Of a DNA stretch of 22,194 nucleotides, positions 5,584 through 22,194 are shown in pieces. Where the stretch lies: positions 1 to 22,194 of IMG/VR virus record IMGVR_UViG_3300042294_003954; one strand, 5' to 3'. The notes beneath the pieces were generated by a model. The model ran no database searches. It saw only the letters and a program-made list of their open reading frames with translations, and was not told the origin of the DNA. The DNA is from a virus. Position numbers and translations under genes: made by a program. Position 1 is the first letter of the stretch; every line of letters starts with the position of its first letter.

Positions 5584-6318
5584 ATGCTGTTCGCGCAAAT
5601 GCATCAATTCCCCCAAGTTGGGTTGCCGACGGGAACCAGCACGGAGCTTCCGGGAACAATGCCGATTCCCGTGGCGATGTGGGATGATTTTTATGAAGGA
5701 ATCACGACGGCCCAAAGCACTTCGGTTTTGTCGTATGATTTGACTGCTACTGGAACCGCAGTTGCCGCTGGTAGTTTTATTGTAAGCACCGGCGACACAA
5801 ACGGTGTATACAGCGTCACTTCTGGCAGCGCCACAAACGACGAAATGATTGTTCGCACTCGCGGAATTCAAAATCTCGTGGCTGGCAAGCCGTTGTCTTG
5901 CTTTGCTCGCGTGCGCAGCGCAGGTTCAGCGGCAACGCATTATGCGGTGTGGGGACTTTGGTCTAACGGAACTACTGCGGTGGCTATTGCGCAAGCGCAG
6001 GGTATTGGTTTCCGTTTCTACAACGGGTTCCTTCAAATTGGCGCACGCAACGACACCGTTACGGTTGCGTGGGCCAATGTCGCGCCCATGGCGGCTGCAA
6101 CTTTCTATGCTTTGGGCATTATTACTGATGGCATCAAGCATCAGTTTTATGTTGATGGCGTGAAGGTTGGCGAAATTGCCTTGGATTGCCTTAAGGCATC
6201 CGGTGCTGCAAGCAGCGGCGTTTATGCAATGGGTTTGGGTTGTGGCACAACCGCAACTTCACCACTCGCCGTTTCTCGTTGCGCCGTTGATTATTGGGGC
6301 ATTGCATCTGTCCGCTGA
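5584..6318 (+). CDS. LamG/concanavalin-like virion surface protein (candidate head decoration)
   Basis: The product has 244 residues rich in Gly, Ala, Ser and Thr, with a beta-strand pattern. The segment PVAMWDDFYEG near residue 35 and the segment FYALGIITDGIKHQFYVDG near residues 175-195 follow the strand-turn pattern of LamG-type jelly-roll proteins that carry a 'Y-V-D-G' turn. Such domains commonly decorate phage capsids or tails and may bind glycans. An AAGGAG at 5569-5574 is a strong ribosome-binding site 9 bases before the ATG. Direct placement after the major capsid protein suggests a decoration or head-fibre role; a tail or bacteriocin-like use is the alternative. Codon use is noticeably more AT-rich than in the capsid gene. 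A stem-loop follows the stop directly. Fold assignment is moderate, exact role is inferred. Confidence 0.65.
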   Translation: MLFAQMHQFPQVGLPTGTSTELPGTMPIPVAMWDDFYEGITTAQSTSVLSYDLTATGTAVAAGSFIVSTGDTNGVYSVTSGSATNDEMIVRTRGIQNLVAGKPLSCFARVRSAGSAATHYAVWGLWSNGTTAVAIAQAQGIGFRFYNGFLQIGARNDTVTVAWANVAPMAAATFYALGIITDGIKHQFYVDGVKVGEIALDCLKASGAASSGVYAMGLGCGTTATSPLAVSRCAVDYWGIASVR

Positions 6319-6376: not shown

Positions 6377-7120
6377 ATGACTCTGACCGCTGCACGCTGC
6401 GTAGACCACATCCGCCACACGCTGGGCAATGCTCTGCCGTCAGCGACTATTGACCCGATGACGGTCATCAACCAAGCGGGCCAATTCCTCTGCACCATGC
6501 ACGAATGGAAGTGGCTGGAGCGGCAGTCCGCCTATGTAGGTTTTACCGCAGCGCAAAGCTGGTCTACCTGCCCGTCCGACCTGCGCGATTTGATTTCGGT
6601 GCAGTTCACTCAGGGACTGGTCAACCGCGTGCGCATTACTTCGATCAACGAAATTAGCCGCCTGCGCTCGCACAACATTGGCGTGGGCTTAGCGATGACT
6701 TGGGTTTCGCTCGTGAGCCGCGCCAACCCCACCGGCGGCGCTCCCATTCCGATTTTTGAACTGTACCCGACGCCAGTCACGACCGACGCGCAGGCGCTTA
6801 CGGTGTTCTACAGGGCGGGCTGGACGCCACCCGCCAACTTGGACGAATCGTCGTTCATCAACATTCCCGAGTACATCGAACCGCTGTACATCCAGATCTT
6901 GCGTGCTTTCGCGCGCGGGTATGAAGAAGAAGACCAAGCAAGCTTAGACCAGCGCCTGCAAGCGTTGTACACGGGCGTGCTTTACTTGACCGCCGCAGAA
7001 CGCGACGGAGCGATCCAGCACCAATACGGCCCTCCGCTGCAAACGGGACTTAGCGCGGTTGGCACCTACTTGCCGGGAGTCCCCGCAAGCCCCTACACCG
7101 TTTCAAACCCCACGCCGTAA
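6377..7120 (+). CDS. Head-tail adaptor (connector) candidate, T7 gp11-like by position
   Basis: The product has 247 residues, mostly helical in its first third. The N-terminal pattern (MTVINQAGQFLCTMHEWKW, residues 28-46) is typical of podovirus head-tail adaptors, where a helix of small residues leads into a Trp-containing turn. The middle is beta-rich with IPIFELYPTPV and ALTVFYRAGWTPP, patterns seen in T7 gp11-like tail tubular A proteins. A helix around YIEPLYIQILRAFARGYEEE follows, and the C-terminus is Pro/Gly-rich and probably disordered. It would form the ring linking portal to nozzle. The ATG at 6377 has no recognisable Shine-Dalgarno; an AGGGGAGG run lies 37 bases upstream inside the stem-loop. 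The next gene starts 2 bases after its stop. Adaptor assignment is by pattern and gene order. Confidence 0.62.
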   Translation: MTLTAARCVDHIRHTLGNALPSATIDPMTVINQAGQFLCTMHEWKWLERQSAYVGFTAAQSWSTCPSDLRDLISVQFTQGLVNRVRITSINEISRLRSHNIGVGLAMTWVSLVSRANPTGGAPIPIFELYPTPVTTDAQALTVFYRAGWTPPANLDESSFINIPEYIEPLYIQILRAFARGYEEEDQASLDQRLQALYTGVLYLTAAERDGAIQHQYGPPLQTGLSAVGTYLPGVPASPYTVSNPTP

Positions 7121-7121
7121 A

Positions 7122-7469
7122 ATGAGCGGAATTATCCACGACAATCAACCGTGCTATTGGACGACTAGCACAAGCGCAACCGCCCAATATCCAACCGACA
7201 CCGTTGGAGGCGCTGGTGCGGTTGCTTCTTCGCTGTTTCGTTCACAATACAAAAACGCCATTGTCATGACGGTAAAGGTTACTCACACCGCAGCAGCAAC
7301 GGCAACGCTTGATTTGGCCGAAGGCACTACAAACATTGCTACGCTGACAACCCCAGCGGCAGGATCGTATATGTTCCAACTAGGTGGAGATGTAGGAACT
7401 TTTGCGGCTGGCGGGTTCAACATTCGAACATCGGCAGGAACTGTTCAAGTGTGGTGGAGGCCGCAGTAA
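7122..7469 (+). CDS. Small beta-rich virion protein, first copy of a tandem paralogue pair
   Basis: The product has 115 residues, predicted all-beta, with abundant Ala, Thr and Gly and almost no charge in the core. It begins IIHDNQPCYW and ends VQVWWRPQ, and contains YKNAIVMTVKV and AAGSYMFQLGG. Each of these matches a block in the next gene, so the two are paralogues. I chose the ATG at 7122, one base after the preceding stop. An in-frame ATG at 7059 lies inside the upstream gene and adds a Pro/Arg-rich stretch not shared with the paralogue. No ribosome-binding site is obvious, so coupling to the previous gene is likely. Function is unknown. A small structural, decoration or tail-accessory role is inferred from its place between adaptor and nozzle. 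Confidence 0.72.
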   Translation: MSGIIHDNQPCYWTTSTSATAQYPTDTVGGAGAVASSLFRSQYKNAIVMTVKVTHTAAATATLDLAEGTTNIATLTTPAAGSYMFQLGGDVGTFAAGGFNIRTSAGTVQVWWRPQ

Positions 7470-7470
7470 C

Positions 7471-7836
7471 ATGGCTGACAATATTTACGACAATCAGCCG
7501 TGCGAGTGGGTGACAATTGCCACAACGGCAACAGACGCTTTTCCGCTAGATGGAAAAGGAGCCAGCACAACTAGTTATGCGCTAAGCAAGTTTGGGGTTG
7601 GGTATAAAAACGCAATTTTGCAAACCGTAGTAATTACCGCAAGCGCAGCGGGAGAAACCTGTTCTGTTCATTTGGGAACTGGCCCCACCGTCTATCAATT
7701 CAGATCTCCCGGCGCAGGAAGCTACAGTTTTGACATTGGCGGCAGCGCAGGAGCTTTTTTGCCAGCGGGATTTCACATCAGGATTCCCGCAAGCAATGGC
7801 GTTAGCAGCATGACCGCGTATTACAGGCCGCAATAA
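7471..7836 (+). CDS. Small beta-rich virion protein, second copy of a tandem paralogue pair
   Basis: The product has 121 residues. It starts MADNIYDNQPCEW and ends TAYYRPQ, matching the previous gene block for block (DNQPC-W, YKNAI, GAGSYSFDIGG, AGFHIRIP, YRPQ). The match extends to DNA at both ends: CGACAATCARCCGTGC occurs at 7139-7154 and 7488-7503, and AGGCCGCARTAA at 7458-7469 and 7825-7836. The ATG at 7471 is chosen because it aligns with the start of the paralogue; an upstream in-frame ATG at 7402 is inside the previous gene. The next gene begins 3 bases after its stop. One Cys is shared with the paralogue near the N-terminus and another occurs mid-protein. Function unknown; a small beta-sandwich virion component is the simplest reading. 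Confidence 0.72.
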   Translation: MADNIYDNQPCEWVTIATTATDAFPLDGKGASTTSYALSKFGVGYKNAILQTVVITASAAGETCSVHLGTGPTVYQFRSPGAGSYSFDIGGSAGAFLPAGFHIRIPASNGVSSMTAYYRPQ

Positions 7837-7839
7837 ATC

Positions 7840-10800
7840 ATGCCGAACTTTGAGCTACCGTTTCCGTTTGGCGGGCTGAACGACAACAACGCGCAGTCCA
7901 AGCAGCCCAGCGGCACATCGTCCGATGCGGTCAATGTGCGCGGCATTGATCCCATCACGGGTCGCGTGCGGGGCGCCCAGCGGAGCGGCTTGCTCAAGTA
8001 CACCAACGACAGCTTCGAAGCCCGCGTTAAACGGTTCGAAAAAGTCGTCTACGACAATCGGCAGCTAAACTATGGCGTTCAAGACCCGCCCAAATTGGTT
8101 TGGGAAAATGTCAACGCCAACACAAACGCCAGCACTTACGGCGTAGTTGACTCGCGAGAAAACTTGTATGTCGTGGACGCCGGGCGCGCCGTCCAAAAGT
8201 TCAACAAGAATGGCGTGTTGATCTACACAATCACGCCTAACATCGAAGATCAAAACCTGCACATTCGCGGATTGGCCGTGGACGGTGCTGGCAACTTGTG
8301 GATTGCCACGGGCCATCAAAACCCAGCGCAGTTGTCTATTTCTCCTTCGCCGTTGACAAGCGCGGCGGCTTTGGAAAAGTCCAAGATTTGGCGGTATCGC
8401 GAAAACGATGCAGGCGCGGCGCCGGAGCAGGTGTACGCCTACAGCCCCAAATTGACGATTGAAAAGCTGGTGTACAGCAACGGCCTGCTGTACGCCGCCG
8501 CCAACGATCCCAAGCTGGAAGACGGCTACGCCATCGTCTACGGCGATTTGTTTACTACGGGACTAGACGAGTTTGGTCGGCGCAAGTTGCCGTATCCGCT
8601 GTGCGACATCGATGTCGATGGCAGCGGCAAGGTTTACTTTGCTGCGGCTGAAAACACCAACCGGTACAACCGGCATTCGGCTACCTACCCTTATTACGGG
8701 CAGACCATTGTCGATTGGACGCCTTCGGACATCCCTGCCGAAAAGTTGTGGTCATGGTACGACTCGACAAGAATCGTGTCCGAAAACAACGAGCGCATCA
8801 CAGCGTGGGAAGACTCGTCCGGCAACAGTCGCGACCTTGGCAACAATCCTGTGACAGAAACGGGGCCGCGCTATCAAGCCACCGGATGGTTGGGACAGCC
8901 GTGCATCGAGTTTGACGGCAATTCGCAACTGTACTCCAATCCCGCCAGCCAACCGACAACGCCGCAAAGCCAAGCATCGTCTCGCACCGGCGTGCCGAAC
9001 TATAGCGGCGCAAAATGGGCGTTGAGCATTGTTTTTAGGCCGCAAGTTGCTGACAACGACAATCCGATTACGGATCCCGCATATCTGTGCGGCATTAACA
9101 CTTCGCAAACGGAAAAACATGACTTGCATGTCACGGTTCACAAAACTCAAGATTTGATTTTTCCGGGGACAGTAGACCCCAACAAAGTTACGCTGTACGC
9201 AACGCCAAACACTTATCCGTCTTGGAATTTTTGGGTTGCAACTCCTTCGACAAGTGTTGAATTGTTTTTGGGTCAACCGTCTCCGGGGTTGGCTACTAGC
9301 GGCAACAATGCGGCGTATATTGGCGCGGGTAAATATCGATTTCCTGCTTCGGCAACGCTGTCCCCCAACAACAATGCCAGCGTTTTGACAATTGTGTATT
9401 CAGCGGGCACGGGCACGCCCGGCACCGACTTGGAATGCCACTATCGATTTAACGGCCAACCAATCGACAGGTGGCGCGGGGCGCAAATTACCGCAACCAT
9501 GGGTTTTTACCTTGGCCGCCAGACGCCTACGCTGTCTTCATCCTCAACCAATTGGTTTAAAGGGCAAGTCGCGGAAATTGTCGCGCTTCACAATTTAGAC
9601 AGCGCATCTGTTCCTGCGTATCCGCGCTCGTTGGGTTTGGCAAGCAAAACGCAAACAGTCATTTTTGGCGCGGACACAAAACGATGTGCAACCGGCATTC
9701 CTTATCCAAATCCCTACGGAATTACTAACAAACAAATTTATGATGTTGATGGAGTAGATGTTGGCTCTTTTAGTCCTCCAAGCACTTTAGGGCTGATTCG
9801 CGGTGATGTTGTGCAAGCTGGATCAACAGTAGCTGGCATTTTGGGGCCGCTTGCCAATTTGCAAACACTTGGCGGCGTAAACTTTTCTGGCTTTCCCGCT
9901 GCTAACAGTTTTCCCTTTAATGCTGCTGCCGTAATTAATCCTGCAAGTTTGCACAGCGTTGCAGCTACTTACACTAGCTCTGACAACACTAACGCTAGTT
10001 TGGTTGAACGAGTAGAAGGCTACCTTGCGTGGAAATGGGGCATTTGGCCGTTGCTGCCTCGCGGCAATTACGCTCCGCCAACGCTGGCGATGGAAACTAC
10101 TTACAACCCCGGAAACTGGCCGCACCCATTCCGCAACTCTCCGCCTTCGCCGGACACTACGCTTACAGCAAGCCGATATGCCAAATTTGTGTCTCCGCTG
10201 GCGGTGACCGGATGCTTGGAGTCTATTACAGGCAATCTATATTGGATTACCGACGGTTTTAGCGGAGACGCATCTGGCATGGGCCTGCGCGTCAAGCATG
10301 TAGACAATGCGACCTACACCATGGGCAATTCGCAGGTGTCTGGCTCTACGACACCGCCTGAATACACATGGTCGGACTTTGACGGGCAGGTTCGCAAGCT
10401 TACATACAACGCTGCAACCGACACATTGACTTCGGAATGGAAACTAGGAACAGGCGGCCCGGCAACTTTCTTTGGCGATTACTTGCCGCACCTTGGATCG
10501 GATGCTTTCTACAACATCTATTACCCGTTTGTGTTTGACGGCGGCGATACGCTGCAACCGGGTTGGTCTGTGTACGCCAAGGAAACAGGGCCAGCGGTCA
10601 AGCTGATGGAAGACACGACGGGCGGAACCGGCGTGTTGCATGCCGTGCCGGAATTGGTCAGCCCGCCGTACAGGTTTGGATCGCTTCCTACGGACGATTT
10701 CCCCGGCACGCCAAACCCTGCCCTGCCGGACACCTATCCGCGCGCAGAAAACGCCTATGTTTTGCGCGACGGTGTTGGCGACGACACAACTGTTGAGCGG

Positions 10801-12153
10801 TACGAACTAATTCAAACCAGCGCAAGTGTCGGCACTTCGTCGCCGCGAGCGCAAGCGTTGCTTGCGGTGTCCAACGGCAAGATCAAGCGGTTTGACTCCG
10901 TCGGGGGCATCCAATCGCCCGCCGGTGCTACGACATTGCCGCAGCCAGAGCTTGATGCCAACGCGCAATACATCGATTCGGCCATTTTGTTTGGCAAGGT
11001 GTACTTTGCCGACGGCATCAGCTACCGAGTGTACGACCCGCGCAACGACATCGTGACCGCGTGGGAAGCGCAGGATGCCGGGTCGCTGCCGAACCGGTGC
11101 AAGCTGCTGGCAAACTGGCGTGGTCGCGCGGTGTTGGCGCGCGGCGCCGATGATCCGCACAACTGGCATATGTCGGAGCAAGGCGCTCCCAACAACTGGG
11201 ACAACTTCCCGCCCGTGTCCACGGCGACGCAAGCTATCAGCGGGAACAACGCCCGCGCCGGATTGTGCCCGGATCTTGTCAACAGCTTGATCCCATACAA
11301 CGACGATTTGCTGTTGTTTGGCTGCGATTCGTCGCTGTGGATGATGCGCGGCGACCCGATGGCCGGTGGCGTCTTCGACCTTGTGTCGGATGTCACAGGC
11401 GTAGCGTTTGGGCGCTCGTGGGCTAAGGATCCGGAAGGCAACTTGTACTTCTTTGGATCGCGCGGCGGCGTTTACATCATGAAGCCGGGCAGTATTCCGA
11501 TTTCGATGACGCAAGCGACTATTGAACGCAGGTTGACTGAAGTCGATTTGGGCCAGTTTTATGTCGAGATGTTCTGGAACACCTACGACGACGGGCTGCA
11601 TTTGTTCCTGATGCCGTTTACGGACACGGCGACGCACACCAAGCATTTCTTCTGGGAGCGCCGCACGGGAGCATGGTTCCAAGACGAGTTTGGCCCTGTC
11701 GGGAACACGGCCAAGCAGCCATCTGCCGCGATTGTCGTGGACGGAGACGCGCCGGACGACAGGTGCCTGTTGATCGGATCCTACGATGCCAGCCTGCTGA
11801 AGTGGGACAAGAACGCTGTCAACGACGACTCCCAGATCATCAACAGCCGCGTGTTGATCGGCCCGATTGCGCCCGACGACACGGAAATGGAATCGCGGGT
11901 GATGAATTTGGCGGCGGTACTTTCCAACCAAGGCGCGGTCAATTATCGTCTGTATGCCAGCCAGACACCCGACCTAAAGGGCGAACCGGTTGCCAATGGC
12001 ACCTTGGTGCCGGGGCGCAACCCGATTCACCTTGTTCGCGCTCGCGGGGCGTATGTCTGGATCGAGCTTGGACAAGCCAACGCGGCCACGCGCTGGGCGA
12101 TGGAAAGCTTGCGAATGGACGCCTACCCGGCGGGAAGGAAGCGCAATGCCTGA
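7840..12153 (+). CDS. Tail nozzle-like beta-propeller protein (T7 gp12-like by position) with LamG-type insertion
   Basis: The product has 1437 residues, far longer than T7 gp12 (about 800). The N-terminus (PFPFGGLNDNNAQSKQPSGT, then DAVNVRGIDPITGRVRGAQ) is the usual opening of podovirus tail tubular B/nozzle proteins. Propeller-like repeats follow (ENLYVVDAG near 107, GLAVDGAGNLWIATG near 145-158, DIDVDGSGKVYFAA near 256-268). From about residue 300 a LamG-type segment interrupts the propeller (LWSWYDSTRIV, AWEDSSGNSRDLGN, IEFDGNSQLYS), ending near residue 733 with VERVEGYLAWKWG. Propeller strands resume (ITGNLYWITDG near 802; PEGNLYFFGSRGGVYIM near 1200). The C-terminus (VRARGAYVWIELGQ, ATRWAMESLRMDA) resembles nozzle C-termini. 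It would form the lower tail tube or tip. A P22 gp10-like stabilisation protein is an alternative. The insert is more AT-rich than both ends of the gene. It overlaps the fibre gene by 8 bases. Confidence 0.72.
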   Translation: MPNFELPFPFGGLNDNNAQSKQPSGTSSDAVNVRGIDPITGRVRGAQRSGLLKYTNDSFEARVKRFEKVVYDNRQLNYGVQDPPKLVWENVNANTNASTYGVVDSRENLYVVDAGRAVQKFNKNGVLIYTITPNIEDQNLHIRGLAVDGAGNLWIATGHQNPAQLSISPSPLTSAAALEKSKIWRYRENDAGAAPEQVYAYSPKLTIEKLVYSNGLLYAAANDPKLEDGYAIVYGDLFTTGLDEFGRRKLPYPLCDIDVDGSGKVYFAAAENTNRYNRHSATYPYYGQTIVDWTPSDIPAEKLWSWYDSTRIVSENNERITAWEDSSGNSRDLGNNPVTETGPRYQATGWLGQPCIEFDGNSQLYSNPASQPTTPQSQASSRTGVPNYSGAKWALSIVFRPQVADNDNPITDPAYLCGINTSQTEKHDLHVTVHKTQDLIFPGTVDPNKVTLYATPNTYPSWNFWVATPSTSVELFLGQPSPGLATSGNNAAYIGAGKYRFPASATLSPNNNASVLTIVYSAGTGTPGTDLECHYRFNGQPIDRWRGAQITATMGFYLGRQTPTLSSSSTNWFKGQVAEIVALHNLDSASVPAYPRSLGLASKTQTVIFGADTKRCATGIPYPNPYGITNKQIYDVDGVDVGSFSPPSTLGLIRGDVVQAGSTVAGILGPLANLQTLGGVNFSGFPAANSFPFNAAAVINPASLHSVAATYTSSDNTNASLVERVEGYLAWKWGIWPLLPRGNYAPPTLAMETTYNPGNWPHPFRNSPPSPDTTLTASRYAKFVSPLAVTGCLESITGNLYWITDGFSGDASGMGLRVKHVDNATYTMGNSQVSGSTTPPEYTWSDFDGQVRKLTYNAATDTLTSEWKLGTGGPATFFGDYLPHLGSDAFYNIYYPFVFDGGDTLQPGWSVYAKETGPAVKLMEDTTGGTGVLHAVPELVSPPYRFGSLPTDDFPGTPNPALPDTYPRAENAYVLRDGVGDDTTVERYELIQTSASVGTSSPRAQALLAVSNGKIKRFDSVGGIQSPAGATTLPQPELDANAQYIDSAILFGKVYFADGISYRVYDPRNDIVTAWEAQDAGSLPNRCKLLANWRGRAVLARGADDPHNWHMSEQGAPNNWDNFPPVSTATQAISGNNARAGLCPDLVNSLIPYNDDLLLFGCDSSLWMMRGDPMAGGVFDLVSDVTGVAFGRSWAKDPEGNLYFFGSRGGVYIMKPGSIPISMTQATIERRLTEVDLGQFYVEMFWNTYDDGLHLFLMPFTDTATHTKHFFWERRTGAWFQDEFGPVGNTAKQPSAAIVVDGDAPDDRCLLIGSYDASLLKWDKNAVNDDSQIINSRVLIGPIAPDDTEMESRVMNLAAVLSNQGAVNYRLYASQTPDLKGEPVANGTLVPGRNPIHLVRARGAYVWIELGQANAATRWAMESLRMDAYPAGRKRNA

Positions 12154-13183
12154 TTCTAAGCGCATTGGAATTTCTGGTCAGGCCCGTGGGATCGACCCGC
12201 AAAGGCAGCGGCGCAACAGCTTTACGACGGATGAAGCTGTCGCGGCCCCGCTGACCTTAAACCAACGCGGGCAAATCACAATTCAGGTGTCTGGGCCGTT
12301 TCAAGTAGACGCTGAGGGCAACCTGTCCTTAAATGTCGCTCCGCCGCTTACGGTGACCAACAACAGCCCGCTGACGCTGGGCTTGGCATTAGACCCCAGC
12401 CTGACCGTGATCAACGGGAAACTGGCTCCGGCGCTGGTGCAATCGGACAATCAACGGGCAGGTTTGGCGCCCCGTTTGACGGGCACCAGCACCAATTTTT
12501 TGGCTGGAGATGGCGTTTACAGGGACTTGCCGGTTGGCGACCACGGCGCTTTGACCGGACTGGCTAATAACGACCATGTCCTATATCTCGACATTGAGGA
12601 TTACCAGCAGACGATTGGCGCAAACCCCGATCAATGCTACATCGCCAACTGCCGTACCGGCGTGGCGCTGGCAACGCTGACGCTGACTGCAAACCGCACC
12701 TACTGGATCCCGTTTGTGGCTCCCGTGCGAGGCGGCACGCTCGGGGATGTGCGCGTGCAGATTACGACCGCTGCTGTTGGAGAAAACATCCGCATCGCGC
12801 TCTACAACTGCGTGAGCGATGGAGCTGGTAAGCCGCTCACCGGCGATTTCCGCCCTAGCGGGTCGGCCCTTGTCAGCGCAACCCAAAGCACGGCATCGAC
12901 CGGGACTTTCGTGTTGCCGTTCGCAACGCCGCTAACGGCTGGTCGGCTGTACTGGTACTGCCTGATGTCAAGCGGCGCTCCCGCCATCCGTGCCGTGTCT
13001 ACAAACGAAGCGGACATGGGGTTGGGTTGGGCAATTCCGAGCGGCACGACTGCGCCGAGCGCGATCACATACTGGTACGAGACGATCACCTACTCGTCTG
13101 GTCTGCCAACCAAGGCGGGCACCGAAAGCTACACCAACGGAACGGGATCGGCTCCTGCCATCTTCCACACTTGGAGCGCGTAG
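12146..13183 (+). CDS. Tail fibre / receptor-binding protein with triple beta-spiral-like shaft
   Basis: The product has 345 residues. I chose the ATG at 12146, which overlaps the nozzle stop by 8 bases and has GGAAGGA at 12133-12139. An in-frame ATG at 11990 only adds out-of-frame nozzle sequence. The N-terminal 30 residues are basic and probably attach to the tail. Residues about 35-97 form three short repeats with the spacing of adenovirus fibre-shaft repeats (GPFQVDAEGNLSLNVA, PPLTVTNNSPLTLGLALD, PSLTVINGKLAPAL). Then come two motifs common in phage fibres: STNFLAGDGVYRDL (115-128) and DHGALTGLANNDHVLYL (132-148). The C-terminal 190 residues are beta-rich (ENIRIALYNCVSD, AGRLYWYCLMSSGAP) and probably form the receptor-binding head. 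A trimeric fibre is inferred. It has several Cys. Its place between nozzle and ejection genes differs from T7, where the fibre gene is last. Confidence 0.8.
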   Translation: MPDSKRIGISGQARGIDPQRQRRNSFTTDEAVAAPLTLNQRGQITIQVSGPFQVDAEGNLSLNVAPPLTVTNNSPLTLGLALDPSLTVINGKLAPALVQSDNQRAGLAPRLTGTSTNFLAGDGVYRDLPVGDHGALTGLANNDHVLYLDIEDYQQTIGANPDQCYIANCRTGVALATLTLTANRTYWIPFVAPVRGGTLGDVRVQITTAAVGENIRIALYNCVSDGAGKPLTGDFRPSGSALVSATQSTASTGTFVLPFATPLTAGRLYWYCLMSSGAPAIRAVSTNEADMGLGWAIPSGTTAPSAITYWYETITYSSGLPTKAGTESYTNGTGSAPAIFHTWSA

Positions 13184-16530: not shown

Positions 16531-19500
16531 ATGAACGACCAAGATCAATTTAGTTTCATGGACAAGCCCAATCAGCCCGTGCCGTCGCCGGGCCAGCTTG
16601 GGTCTGAGGCCTATGCGTTCATGGACGAGGGCGGCGGTTACAGCCTTAAAGAATACGCGACCCAATATGGCAGCAGCTTTCTCCAAGGGTTGACTGGCGC
16701 TTTTACTGGCGCCGTCGAAGGCCTTGGCATTTTGTCGGAAAAGCTGACTGGAGAATCGCAGCTTGACGACCGGGCGCGTGAAATGCAGGCAAGCGTTCAG
16801 CAGTTTGCGCCGGGCGTTACCGGTCTAGGCCAAGGCTGGACTGCTGGAATTGGAGGCGCTTTTGGCAGCGCAACGGGTTTTGTGTTGGCAGGAGCGGCAA
16901 CGGGCGGAACGGGCGCGCTTGCTGGGCGTGGTTTAGCTGGCGTTGGCGCGCTTGGGCGGGCTGCCGGGGCAAGCGCCGAGGCAATTGGCGCTGCGGGGGC
17001 CGCTGTGGGCCGTGGCGTGCAGATGGCTACTGCTGGGGGCATTGGGGCGCTGGGCAACGCAGCCGCGCGCTACGAGGAAGCCAAAGCCCTTGGCAAGTCC
17101 GAAGATGAAGCGTGGGGGTCGTACCTTGCGGGCGCGGCGATTGGCTCGCTCGAAATCGTGCCTGTGGGCTTGGCAAGGTCGGCGCAGCGTCTTGGCCGGA
17201 TTAACAACCGCACCGGCGGCGCCCTTAGCAAGTTGACCGTCGGCCAAGTGATGCTTGCCGAAGGTTTGGAAGAAGCTGGGCAGGAGGCGCTGAACGAAAG
17301 CCTCAACCAGTTGGCCGACTATGCGATGGGCATCAAGTCCGCCGAGGAAGCGTTTGAGTTTGGGGAAGTTTTGAAGTCCGGCGTGCTTGGATTCCTGCCG
17401 GGCAGCGCCATTTCAGGTTTGACTGCCAAGGCGCAGATTGCCGCCGATCTTGCGGAGCAGCGCAAGGCGTTGGCCGAAAAGGAAGCCGCCGAACTGCCCA
17501 AGAAGCTGGAAGAACAGCGCATCCAAGGCTTGACCGAACAGGTCGAGGGTGCAACTAAGCAAGCCGAGCAGCTAAACCAGCTTTACGAAATGGGCCAAAA
17601 GGAGCTTGAACGGCTCAAAGGCCCGGCGGAAGTTGCAGAGGGCGAAACGCCGCGTCCTGTCGGCACGCCGGAACAGATTGCCCAGCTTGAAAAGCAGCTA
17701 GAGCAAATTGGCGAAGCGCGCGAAATTTCCGCCAAGCAACTTGAAGCAGTCGCGGCGGAAACGGAGTTGTCGGCCAAGGCCGAATTGGCTGGCGACTACG
17801 GGTACGCGCGTGCCGCCGCCGAGCGCAAGGGCTTGCTGGAGGAGTTCGAAAAGTCTCAGGAACCGGGGGCTGAACGCCTTATGGTGCCTGAAGAAGAAGC
17901 CAAGTGGGCCGCCACCAAGGAGCAATGGAAGAAAACCAAGGCGTTTGGCGCCTTGCCAATCAATGTAGACACGATTCGGCCCGTGCTTCCGGCCAGCGAT
18001 TCGCAGCGCAACGCCGAGCGGATCCTGAACGAGGCGGGCGTAGATGTCGAATTCTTAGACCTTGGCGCGGGCAGCGAAGCCGTGCAGGGATTCCAGCAAG
18101 GCAATAAGGTCTATCTGAACTCGCGCCTGTCGGAAGGCCAATTGCTGCGCACGGTCGCGCGGCACGAAGGCTACCACTCGCTGTACAGGAAGTCGCCGGA
18201 AGAATGGCAAGCGACGCTGAACAAGATGCAGCAAGTCGCGCCAAATGTGTTCAACGCCGCGATGAACAAGGCCGCAAGCGAAATTTCGACGCGGCTTGGT
18301 CTTGACGAAGCCAAATTGCGCAAGCGGCTGCAAACGCCGGAAGGGCGTGCCGAACTAACGAACGAGACGATGTCGTCGATGGCCGACATCTTTAGTTCCA
18401 CGATTGACGCGCTGCGCGAAAACCCTTCGCTGGCCGACGAGTTGATCCAAAAAGACCCCGGCTTCTTCCGCAAGATCTGGGAATGGGTCAAGGAACGGCT
18501 GAACAAGATCGGCTTTGATTTCAACACGCTGTCCGCCGAGGAGCAGAAAGCACTCGGCAAGCTGCCCAAGCTGCTGTACAAGACGACGGACGGCGAGGTC
18601 GAAGTGGAGGCGTCGGTCAACGAGCGCATTGCTGGCGCCAACACGCTGATTGCGCTGTGGGATCGCGCGCAAGCCGGAACCGAGGTGGCCATGTCCAGCC
18701 GCCAACGGCAAGCGCGCATCTTTGCCAAGCGGACTTTGGCAACCATTGAGGCGACTAAAAAAACTGAAGCCAAGGTCAAGGAAGACATTGATGCGGAAGA
18801 CGCCGAAGCCGCAGCAAAGCGCAAAGAAGCCGAAGAAAAAGAACAAGCGCGGGTCGCCAAAAAGCGCGAAGCCGAAATTACCAAAGTAGTCAACAAGATC
18901 AAGCAAATCTCGGAAACCGAGGAGTCTTGGTATTTGGTTGAAGCAGCGGGCACGGCTACGACGATTGAAGACCGCAACACCGCCGTCCAAATGCTGCCGT
19001 TTGGGCTTAAGGATGCAACGGCAGAGGAAACCAACCGCCTAGGCCAAGCACTTGTCGCAAGGTACGACAAGTATGCGGCTAGAGCCAAGGCCGCAGCCGA
19101 ACGCAAAGCGGAGCAAAAGCAAAAGGAAGCGGATCAGAAAACGCGCGCTGCTGAAGAACTGGCCGCGAGACAGGCAGAAGCCCAACGCAAGCGGGAAGCT
19201 GCCGAGTTGGCAAAACAGCAACGGGAGGAAGCCGCCAAGGCCAAACAAGCCGAGCGTGAGTTTGAGCAGGAGCGAAAGGCGCTGCAACGGCAACGCGAAA
19301 AAGAGCAAGCTGCCGAAGAACGGCGCCGCAACGCAAAAGAGCGCAGGAATGCCGCTGCCGAACGGCTAGCGGCAAAGCAAGTTGAGAAAGAGCGAAAGGA
19401 AGCCGAAAAACAACAGCGCAAGGCGGACGCGGCAGCGGCCAAGCTGGCTGAACAGCAGCGCAGGGAACGGGAAGCCGCAGAAGCGGCGGAAGCCGCCGCT

Positions 19501-22194
19501 CAAGTTGCGGAGCAACAAGAGCAAGAAGAAAAGGAAGCTCGCACGCGCCGCAAGGGCGAACGCATCCCCAAGTTGCGTCGCGGGTACATTGCGCCGGGGC
19601 AACTGCGCGTTGGCGACATCGTCAGTTACAACTACTGGAAGGCTAAAGTTATCGAGGCTACGGGCAGCGGCTTGGAGCAGCGGGTCAAGCTGCAACGGCT
19701 GTCTGACGCCGAAGCCAAGATGATCGACACTATGGATCGGCAGGATTGGTGGAATGCCGTTCCGTTTGCCGGGCGCGTGTTCACGGTTAACATGACCAGC
19801 TCCAAGATCATCAGCTTGGTCGCGTCTCGCAGCGAAGAAGAAGTGCTGGAGGAAGATGGCGTCAAGATGTTGCGCGAACGACTTCGCGCGGATCTGGAAC
19901 GCCGCGAAGGCGATCCGCCCCGTTTCAGCATCGTCGGGCAATACGACGACATGGCCGTGGACATGCGCTACTCCAAGGCGCTGGGCTTGATGGAGGCGTT
20001 CAAGGCTGGCGGAGAAATTCCGGCAACCAGCACATGGGACGCCATCCACGATTACAAGTCGCGAGGCTTTGACCGCGATGAATGGAATCAGGCCATCAAG
20101 TATTTCGAGGAATACGGCATGTGGCCGTACCTGAGCGCCGGGCAATACACCATTCCGGTGCAGATCGACACGCAAGTCGAGCCGCTGTTCTCGATCAACC
20201 TTGGCAAGAAAGAGCAGGCGATCCACGAACCGACGGGCTTGCCGCTCAACAAGAACGGCACGGTCACGGTTTATTACCCGACCACCAACGACAATGCGCG
20301 CAGGCTGATCGAAACTCGTGAACTGGTCGGGCACTCGGTGGACGCCAAGCGCATTTACCTGACCAACGAGTCCAGCGGTGCGGCCATTGCGAAAAAGCCG
20401 GGCACTATCGAGCAGCCGACAGATGGCGCCAATGTACTGCTGCACATCGACCCCAACCTGCTGTCGTTGGATGCCGAGTACGAAGGCGGGCGCAAGGACT
20501 TTTACATCACCATTCGCGAAGGCGAAGCATTTGACCAAAAGATGAAGCAGGTCAAGTTGTTTACGCTGGACATTGATCGCGACAAGCCAGTTTCTCCTCC
20601 GCTTACTCTGGACAAACTTAACGAAGCGGTCGCGGATGCAGTTGCCGCCTATCGCGCGCTCAAACCCGAGCAGCGCAAGGAGCGGCTGCGCGAAGCCAAG
20701 AAGAGGCTCAAGGCCAAGCACAATGTCGGCGTGTTGCTGTCGCAGCCCAACGCCAAGCTGCGCAAGACCTCCGACGAAATGGGGCCGCGCACCAAAAACG
20801 GCAAAAGGGTCAGTTCGCTTGGTCTGGGTCTGGCGTCCGCGCAGAAGCTTGGCGACAAGCTAAACCTGTGCGCAAATTCGGCCAATTGCCGCGATACATG
20901 CTTGGGCGACAAGTCAGGCTTGAATGCACTATACGGCGGCGAAGGCAGCAGTCGTTCCGGCCCGCGCCTCTCGCAATACCTGAAGACCGAGGCGCTTGTC
21001 CTTAGCACGGAAGACTTTGCCGTTGCCCTGTACGCGGAAATCGAGAAGTTCGAGCGCGCCGTGCTTCGGGAGCGTCGTCAACCTAGCGTGCGCCTGAACC
21101 AAACCTCCGACCTGCCGCCGTCGGTGCTGAAGCCGTTCATCGAGGCGTTCCCGCGCACGATCTTCTACGACTACACCAAGCTGCACAGCAGTTCCATTGC
21201 GCCCAACCATCACCTGACATACAGCTCCACGGGCTGGTCGCAGATGATCGACGGCGAATATCAGGAGAGCAAGGGCACCAACTGGGGCCGCATGCGCAAC
21301 ATGCTGGACTCTGGTTTCAATGTGGCGATCTCGTTTACCGGGCGCGGCAAAACAAGCTTGCCCGATTTCATCCTCGACGAGCAAACTGGCATCAAATACA
21401 AGGTGATCGACGGCGACACCTACGACGCACGATTCTTGGATCAACAGCCGGAGGGGCAACCGGGCATCGTCATTGGCCTGCGCAACAAGGACGACACGCG
21501 CGCGGCTGGCAAGGAGCCGCTGCTGGAGGAACTCAAAGCCAAGGGGCGCAGCCTGTTTGTGTATTACGACCGCCAAGTGCATGGCCCGACCTTGGGCGTG
21601 CCGCCGCAAAAGGCAAGCGAAGAAACGATTGCGCGGCTAAAGGAGCGGATGAAAGCCGCCCCGCCCGCGCAGGCTGAAGCCGAGCTTGAAGGCGAGCAGG
21701 AAACACCCAGTTTCTCCGTTCTAGGCCGCGTCACGCCGGAGATGGACGCGGAATACATGGCCGCTGTTGAAAGCGGCGACATGGTCACGGCGCAGCGGAT
21801 GGTGGACAAGGCAGCGCGTGCCGCCGGATACGCCATTGGCCCTGTGTATCACGCTGGCCGGAAAAAATTCAATCGGTTTATGAGCTTGTCGGAGCAAGCT
21901 GAAGAAGCCGGTGAATCCTACGAACCGGAAGGTTACGACGGCGGGAACTTGGGCATTGGGTTCTACTTTACTCCAGACAAAGCTTATGCGTCTAAATACG
22001 GAAAAGCGCGAAAGTTTTATTTGAAAATTGACAAGCTTTTAGATTTTGCAGACGAGCAAAACAAAAAACGGTTTGGTGAATTGCTAGATGAAATGACCGA
22101 AGATTTGGGGGAAGTTGCGCAAGGCGAAGTTATTGACGCTTTGGTGGATGAAACTAATTCAACTGGCGTTGTTGGTTACGGTGTTGGCGGTATG
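16531..22194 (+). CDS. Giant polyvalent/ejection protein: zincin motif, coiled coils, gp88-like domain, ADP-ribosyltransferase (3' end outside window)
   Basis: At least 1888 residues are visible, with no stop before the edge. Order of parts: residues 50-190, Gly/Ala-rich hydrophobic segments compatible with membrane contact; about 490-620, a zinc metallopeptidase-like region with HEGYH at 545-549 and a possible third ligand Glu612 (TNETMSSMADIF); about 721-800 and 849-1010, highly charged Lys/Glu/Arg/Ala coiled coils; about 1020-1045, a small beta segment (QLRVGDIVSYNYWKAKVIEA); 1231-1332, a possible ADP-ribosyltransferase-like region; about 1395-1675, a gp88-like domain with Cys1447, Cys1453 and Cys1457; from 1771, an ADP-ribosyltransferase-like domain (GPVYHAG, LGIGFYFTPDKAYASKYG). 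This matches known phage polyvalent proteins, thought to enter the host with DNA and modify host targets. It fills the T7 gp16 position. The ATG follows the previous stop by 13 bases without a Shine-Dalgarno, so coupling is likely. Confidence 0.85.
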   Translation, partial: MNDQDQFSFMDKPNQPVPSPGQLGSEAYAFMDEGGGYSLKEYATQYGSSFLQGLTGAFTGAVEGLGILSEKLTGESQLDDRAREMQASVQQFAPGVTGLGQGWTAGIGGAFGSATGFVLAGAATGGTGALAGRGLAGVGALGRAAGASAEAIGAAGAAVGRGVQMATAGGIGALGNAAARYEEAKALGKSEDEAWGSYLAGAAIGSLEIVPVGLARSAQRLGRINNRTGGALSKLTVGQVMLAEGLEEAGQEALNESLNQLADYAMGIKSAEEAFEFGEVLKSGVLGFLPGSAISGLTAKAQIAADLAEQRKALAEKEAAELPKKLEEQRIQGLTEQVEGATKQAEQLNQLYEMGQKELERLKGPAEVAEGETPRPVGTPEQIAQLEKQLEQIGEAREISAKQLEAVAAETELSAKAELAGDYGYARAAAERKGLLEEFEKSQEPGAERLMVPEEEAKWAATKEQWKKTKAFGALPINVDTIRPVLPASDSQRNAERILNEAGVDVEFLDLGAGSEAVQGFQQGNKVYLNSRLSEGQLLRTVARHEGYHSLYRKSPEEWQATLNKMQQVAPNVFNAAMNKAASEISTRLGLDEAKLRKRLQTPEGRAELTNETMSSMADIFSSTIDALRENPSLADELIQKDPGFFRKIWEWVKERLNKIGFDFNTLSAEEQKALGKLPKLLYKTTDGEVEVEASVNERIAGANTLIALWDRAQAGTEVAMSSRQRQARIFAKRTLATIEATKKTEAKVKEDIDAEDAEAAAKRKEAEEKEQARVAKKREAEITKVVNKIKQISETEESWYLVEAAGTATTIEDRNTAVQMLPFGLKDATAEETNRLGQALVARYDKYAARAKAAAERKAEQKQKEADQKTRAAEELAARQAEAQRKREAAELAKQQREEAAKAKQAEREFEQERKALQRQREKEQAAEERRRNAKERRNAAAERLAAKQVEKERKEAEKQQRKADAAAAKLAEQQRREREAAEAAEAAAQVAEQQEQEEKEARTRRKGERIPKLRRGYIAPGQLRVGDIVSYNYWKAKVIEATGSGLEQRVKLQRLSDAEAKMIDTMDRQDWWNAVPFAGRVFTVNMTSSKIISLVASRSEEEVLEEDGVKMLRERLRADLERREGDPPRFSIVGQYDDMAVDMRYSKALGLMEAFKAGGEIPATSTWDAIHDYKSRGFDRDEWNQAIKYFEEYGMWPYLSAGQYTIPVQIDTQVEPLFSINLGKKEQAIHEPTGLPLNKNGTVTVYYPTTNDNARRLIETRELVGHSVDAKRIYLTNESSGAAIAKKPGTIEQPTDGANVLLHIDPNLLSLDAEYEGGRKDFYITIREGEAFDQKMKQVKLFTLDIDRDKPVSPPLTLDKLNEAVADAVAAYRALKPEQRKERLREAKKRLKAKHNVGVLLSQPNAKLRKTSDEMGPRTKNGKRVSSLGLGLASAQKLGDKLNLCANSANCRDTCLGDKSGLNALYGGEGSSRSGPRLSQYLKTEALVLSTEDFAVALYAEIEKFERAVLRERRQPSVRLNQTSDLPPSVLKPFIEAFPRTIFYDYTKLHSSSIAPNHHLTYSSTGWSQMIDGEYQESKGTNWGRMRNMLDSGFNVAISFTGRGKTSLPDFILDEQTGIKYKVIDGDTYDARFLDQQPEGQPGIVIGLRNKDDTRAAGKEPLLEELKAKGRSLFVYYDRQVHGPTLGVPPQKASEETIARLKERMKAAPPAQAEAELEGEQETPSFSVLGRVTPEMDAEYMAAVESGDMVTAQRMVDKAARAAGYAIGPVYHAGRKKFNRFMSLSEQAEEAGESYEPEGYDGGNLGIGFYFTPDKAYASKYGKARKFYLKIDKLLDFADEQNKKRFGELLDEMTEDLGEVAQGEVIDALVDETNSTGVVGYGVGGM

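Follow-up and report, generated by a model that had tools for sequence, protein, structure and literature searches.

The nozzle protein gp17 of phage SU10 combines a platform with a seven-bladed propeller core, and it carries four immunoglobulin (Ig)-like domains inserted in that propeller between blades 2 and 3; the SU10 nozzle also holds the short tail fibres (PMC9509320). The muzzle protein gp44 of phicrAss001 has a T7-like ring-joining domain and a propeller, with Ig-like domains and a 'crass fold', domains nested in inserted domains, and a length that varies among relatives; its authors infer contact with the surface (PMC10172136). In both phages the nozzle-propeller insertions are located at the tail tip, where they rearrange or meet the cell surface (PMC9509320, PMC10172136). 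Here we analysed the whole of IMG/VR virus record IMGVR_UViG_3300042294_003954 (22,194 bases, the window), in which one open frame encodes P0001, a predicted nozzle protein of 1437 residues. The nozzles P22 gp10, Pa223 and Sf6 gp8 share its core fold (Z 25-30) but, at 470-512 residues, have about one third of its length. P0001 resembles SU10 gp17 in its core (fold match Z 27.2) and in the extra domains inside it, and gp44 in its nesting, but in place of Ig-like domains or a 'crass fold' it holds a second propeller that contains a predicted LamG jelly roll. Assignment of P0001 as an SU10-type nozzle with Ig-like domains was considered and rejected, as the insert is modelled as a seven-bladed propeller (Z 28.6) with a LamG. 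Phage LamG modules and nozzles that carry inserted domains are both known kinds; their combination appears to be new, and searches of open-licence papers turned up no LamG-bearing nozzle.

P0001 is a predicted podovirus nozzle protein whose core consists of residues 1-80 and 1001-1437. The platform and seven-bladed-propeller fold was assessed on L019, a LamG-free relative of 856 residues, and tied to P0001 by core profiles. The two outer core parts of the L019 model had a predicted local distance difference test (pLDDT) score of mostly 70-93. The model matched the Pa223 nozzle 9nwi_Y (Z 29.7, 3.0 Å over 459), the nozzles of SU10 (Z 27.2) and P22 (gp10, Z 26.7) and the phicrAss001 muzzle (Z 26.1). 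The profile of the first core part (nN) matched L019 (independent E-value, iE, 2e-17) and L055 (iE 1e-18), both left out of the profile, and the profile of the second core part, built without L019, matched it at iE 2.9e-138. The gene order agrees with this assignment: Pfam and PHROG searches identified portal-like, major-capsid-like and adaptor genes in the window, followed by the 1437-codon frame, with the adaptor gene just upstream of it. PHROG 10356, a virion protein family, matched residues 244-392 (E 1.4e-12). The Pfam scan gave no confident domain for P0001, only a sub-threshold Reg_prop repeat, and no match to Laminin_G_3. Sequence searches of the PDB with P0001, LamG alignments and the nozzle core returned nothing credible.

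A preliminary description, made from the sequence alone, had proposed that a LamG-type module is inserted in the propeller of a nozzle protein. The insertion of a LamG in a propeller of such a protein was borne out, but the propeller that stops at about residue 290 is a second one, not the nozzle's own. Residues 82-290 and 776-998 together form this second seven-bladed propeller, nested inside the nozzle protein. In a model of residues 58-1022 that drew on 18 sequences, pLDDT was mostly 75-93 over about residues 97-345. A single seven-bladed propeller aligned to model residues 22-935 (P0001 79-992; 290 residues, Z 28.6, 2.6 Å) and left the LamG out. Profiles of the two halves recognised both in other LamG-bearing members. 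Because one propeller closes across the LamG and its halves are recognised by profiles, the propeller first noticed is the second one, nested in the nozzle. The description had suggested comparison with shorter homologues that might lack the LamG as a block, and two such relatives were found. In L154 and L155 (1080 codons, stop to stop) the two propeller halves lie 35 residues from each other, and a LamG profile search gave no match. By eye, the uninterrupted stretch GDIFVTWHENVGAGTDNQGISKFNANGDLL of L154 corresponds to GKVYFAAAENTNRYN, the LamG and GCLESITGNLYW in P0001, which places the LamG insertion point within one blade. L019 was a poor test as an "empty" relative: homology between its residues 84-428 and the second propeller is not clear (p2a E 0.008), and these residues were mostly modelled at pLDDT below 50. 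L154 and L155 were used instead.

The second propeller is interrupted by a predicted LamG jelly roll at residues 292-770. A LamG profile was derived from 12 free-standing phage proteins, and its positions 16-122, 129-228 and 227-255 matched residues 292-411 (iE 7e-15), 477-585 (weakly, iE 0.012) and 714-742 (iE 3e-7), respectively. These three pieces are collinear in P0001 and relate it by sequence to LamG proteins. Comparison of hidden Markov models (HMM-HMM) gave the first part a probability of 99.8% over its first 103 columns. Predicted viral LamG-like and ConA-like proteins were among the best fold matches of the P0001 model, several with TMt 0.58-0.67 across some 300 columns; pLDDT, however, was 30-75 in much of the LamG. 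Free-standing phage LamG proteins (PHROG 10356, Laminin_G_3-like) share the motif order of P0001 (WTP..LWxWYDA, WxDxSGNxR, GxPxxxFDG, GxxxEI, EGYLAWKWG, LP..HPY..PP). They differ in that they are mostly 245-560 residues long, whereas the LamG of P0001 lies inside a propeller and has inserts of 65 and 128 residues. The features are listed in Table 1.

Table 1 Features of the nozzle gene and its adaptor partner in the window
Feature	Coordinates	Strand	Basis
Adaptor protein, expected nozzle partner	6377..7120	+	Pfam PF24175 SU10_adaptor, E 1.6e-8, above cut-off
Gene of nozzle protein P0001, 1437 residues, one open frame	7840..12153	+	Profiles and fold of the nozzle core
Nozzle core, first part, residues 1-80	7840..8079	+	nN profile, which also matches L019 and L055
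Second beta-propeller, first part, residues 82-290	8083..8709	+	Profile p2a; counterpart in LamG-free L154
LamG piece 1, residues 292-411	8713..9072	+	Profile iE 7e-15; HMM-HMM 99.8%; PHROG 10356
Smaller LamG insert, residues 412-476, GC 0.44	9073..9267	+	65 residues against 6 profile positions
LamG piece 2, residues 477-585, ending with the GQVAEIVALHN strand	9268..9594	+	Profile iE 0.012, weak, collinear
Nested insert, residues 586-713, rich in AT, diverging fast and modelled at low confidence	9595..9978	+	
LamG piece 3, residues 714-770, with the EGYLAWKWG helix, then the LP..HP loop and the HPF..PP end	9979..10149	+	Profile match to 714-742
Second beta-propeller, second part, residues 776-998	10165..10833	+	Profile p2b; one propeller spans both LamG sides
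Nozzle core, second part, residues 1001-1437	10840..12150	+	78-80% identity to close relatives; profile and fold

As read from the profile matches, the LamG is interrupted twice, at residues 586-713 and at residues 412-476. Profile positions 227 and 228 are adjacent but match P0001 residues 128 apart, which defines the nested insert 586-713. The preliminary description had recognised this nested insertion from the long separation of strand and helix, and the split profile match confirmed it, but the description had missed the insert at 412-476. The gap that separates the GQVAEIVA strand and the EGYLAWKWG helix is 143 residues in P0001, compared to 13 in 20 free-standing LamG proteins and 18 in three more. 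In eight other nozzle relatives, most of those measured, it is 35-45 residues, except for two that have 70-71, and it is 153-161 in the close relatives and 156 in L046. Since all close relatives have a gap of 153-161, the long form is a property of the clade. The model had a pLDDT of about 29-55 in the nested insert and was low across residues 590-722. The guanine-plus-cytosine (GC) counts given earlier, 20 in the 60 bases from 9721 and 42 in the 60 bases from 11101, were exact. The dip in total GC is modest (0.471 at insert length against 0.570 for the contig), and because about 4% of equal contig windows are as AT-rich, total GC was not relied on as a sign of foreign origin. At third codon positions the large insert had a GC of 0.34 and the remainder of the gene 0.68 (Fisher p = 3e-13), and the insert segments of relatives are also AT-rich compared to the core. 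A GC dip that coincides with the inserts could come from an assembly or annotation artefact, either a chimeric contig or a fused reading frame, but the relatives refute this: the identical 1437-residue protein is encoded on another contig (L002), and at least eight other records, at 55-65% identity, preserve the arrangement in a single open frame.

Existing relatives cover most stages of the nesting. The architecture survey comprised 54 open frames, some of them near-copies, with both nozzle-core parts, and the stretch between these parts ranged from 25 residues (L166) up to 1191. The stages include the core only (L166), the core with an uninterrupted propeller (L154), about 35 members with a LamG, and one with two (L053). 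In L053 the second LamG (PF13385, E 3.7e-7, residues 664-844) lies in the LP..HP loop of LamG piece 3, and L065, L068 and L052 have extra segments in this loop, including an NGxxYTFR...NEVxI-like stretch. The LP..HP loop appears to be one more hot spot for insertions. In L055, seven FG-GAP_2 repeats (E 1.8e-99; best stretch 645-691) replace the second propeller and the LamG. Other insert modules occupy the 654-713 residues between the core parts of L144, L145, L160 and L176, which matched neither the second-propeller nor the LamG profile. One large clade of the nozzle-core tree has 39 members, of which 35 bear a LamG; three of these 35 (L150, L158 and kin) were counted by kinship and layout, their LamG profile match being below threshold. 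The LamG label requires three changes on this tree, and one gain followed by two losses is one possible reading; the placement of L154 and L155 (89/55 support) is compatible with either never having had a LamG or having lost it. No match for P0001 or L019 was found in cultured phages (tblastn, phage collection), the LamG alone gave only three weak matches in that collection (E 0.5-0.7), and the 60 pattern matches in bacterial and archaeal genomes included no relative of P0001.

The LamG layers, and above all the innermost insert, diverge fastest. Compared with nine close relatives, P0001 was 78-80% identical over the second core part; the figure dropped to 49-66% for residues 291-590 and to 24-38% for residues 591-690. 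The pairwise ratio of nonsynonymous to synonymous divergence (dN/dS) was 0.02-0.07 in the core (1001-1437), 0.11-0.21 in the LamG (for pairs whose divergence could be measured), 0.22-0.34 in the small insert and 0.60-0.91 in the large insert. A ratio near 1, together with low pLDDT in 590-722, variable length and low third-position GC, is what would be seen if the nested insert were near-neutral disordered filler and the LamG a passive leftover. We regard this as improbable, as short motifs (RGDVVQ-like, VNPxxLHSxAATY) are still recognisable in the large insert across relatives, the smaller insert is clearly constrained, and retention of the LamG in nearly the whole clade is unexpected for a passive leftover. 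It is also rather unlikely that the LamG and its inserts are structural, docking the phage's own tail fibres or bracing neighbouring nozzle subunits with no host contact. The SU10 nozzle is a precedent for fibre docking, and a fibre-like gene at 12140-13183 (Adeno_shaft E 1.7e-5, below the Pfam cut-off) directly follows the P0001 gene. A docking surface should be conserved, yet residues 591-690 have the lowest identity, the insert length varies among relatives, and the divergence forms an island bounded inside the gene.

This island was seen between the phages L003 and L005. The two were 97-100% identical over 5 kb upstream of the gene, 56-86% identical over most of nucleotides 400-2200 of the gene, with the minimum at the nested insert, and mostly 84-98% identical afterwards. 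Synonymous divergence was 0.14 in the first core part, 0.95 in the second propeller and 0.83 in the LamG. Low synonymous divergence in the first core part against high divergence in the propeller and LamG points to exchange of the middle of the nozzle gene by recombination. Together, the selection and recombination patterns would fit an exposed contact surface.

A second divergence island (50-55% identity) lies about 2000 to 1400 bases upstream of the nozzle start, in the pairs L005/L011 and L003/L008, which are elsewhere 94-100% identical. It matches the 244-residue protein encoded at 5584-6318, right after the major-capsid-like gene, which by eye resembles another ConA-like jelly roll. Directly before the nozzle gene, two small neighbouring open frames (7059-7836; 136 and 144 codons) look like tandem paralogues, each with a DNQPCxW start and a WWRPQ or YYRPQ end. 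The second of these falls where L005 and L011 share 58-63% identity. A giant open frame at 16531-22194 (at least 1888 codons) extends past the end of the record and contains a GP88 domain (PF17338, E 2.4e-14, residues 1402-1654).

The analysis establishes the domain order of P0001 and its four-level nest, in which the nozzle core contains the second seven-bladed propeller, this contains the LamG, and the LamG contains the variable insert, as well as the borders of the inserts, the gradient of divergence and the mosaic history of the gene. On this basis we propose, with moderate confidence, that the LamG is an exposed surface-contact module of a podovirus nozzle. In the proposed mechanism, the nozzle core would bind the adaptor and let the DNA out, and the second propeller, inserted early in the core, would act as a stalk or platform holding the LamG clear of the channel. 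The LamG would carry its two loop inserts at the outer end and, together with them, contact a variable host-surface molecule, probably a glycan, and so may help to position or trigger the nozzle. Because the inserted nozzle-propeller domains of SU10 and phicrAss001 are located at the tail tip, this is most likely also the position of the LamG and its inserts, which would touch a variable surface molecule. Several points weigh against this interpretation. The glycan and any site for it on the LamG are putative, and the poorly modelled nested insert (pLDDT about 29-55) may be filler that is disordered. Near-neutral drift would also give a dN/dS of 0.6-0.9, the product of the separate fibre-like gene may be the real receptor binder, and the four layers were seen across separate models, none of which spans them all together.

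The nested layers of P0001 are probably a swappable surface-contact module that is part of the DNA-ejection nozzle. Tentatively, host range may be set in part by a recombining LamG cassette in the nozzle, with residues 586-713 as a specificity element on the LamG scaffold, and not only by fibres. The series of relatives, from the core only to a LamG with inserts and a second LamG, illustrates how domains may come to be nested in the domains of a tail protein. If the LamG or its insert binds the host, the nozzle would also be an adhesin, and searches for receptor-binding proteins that are limited to fibres and spikes would miss proteins of this kind.
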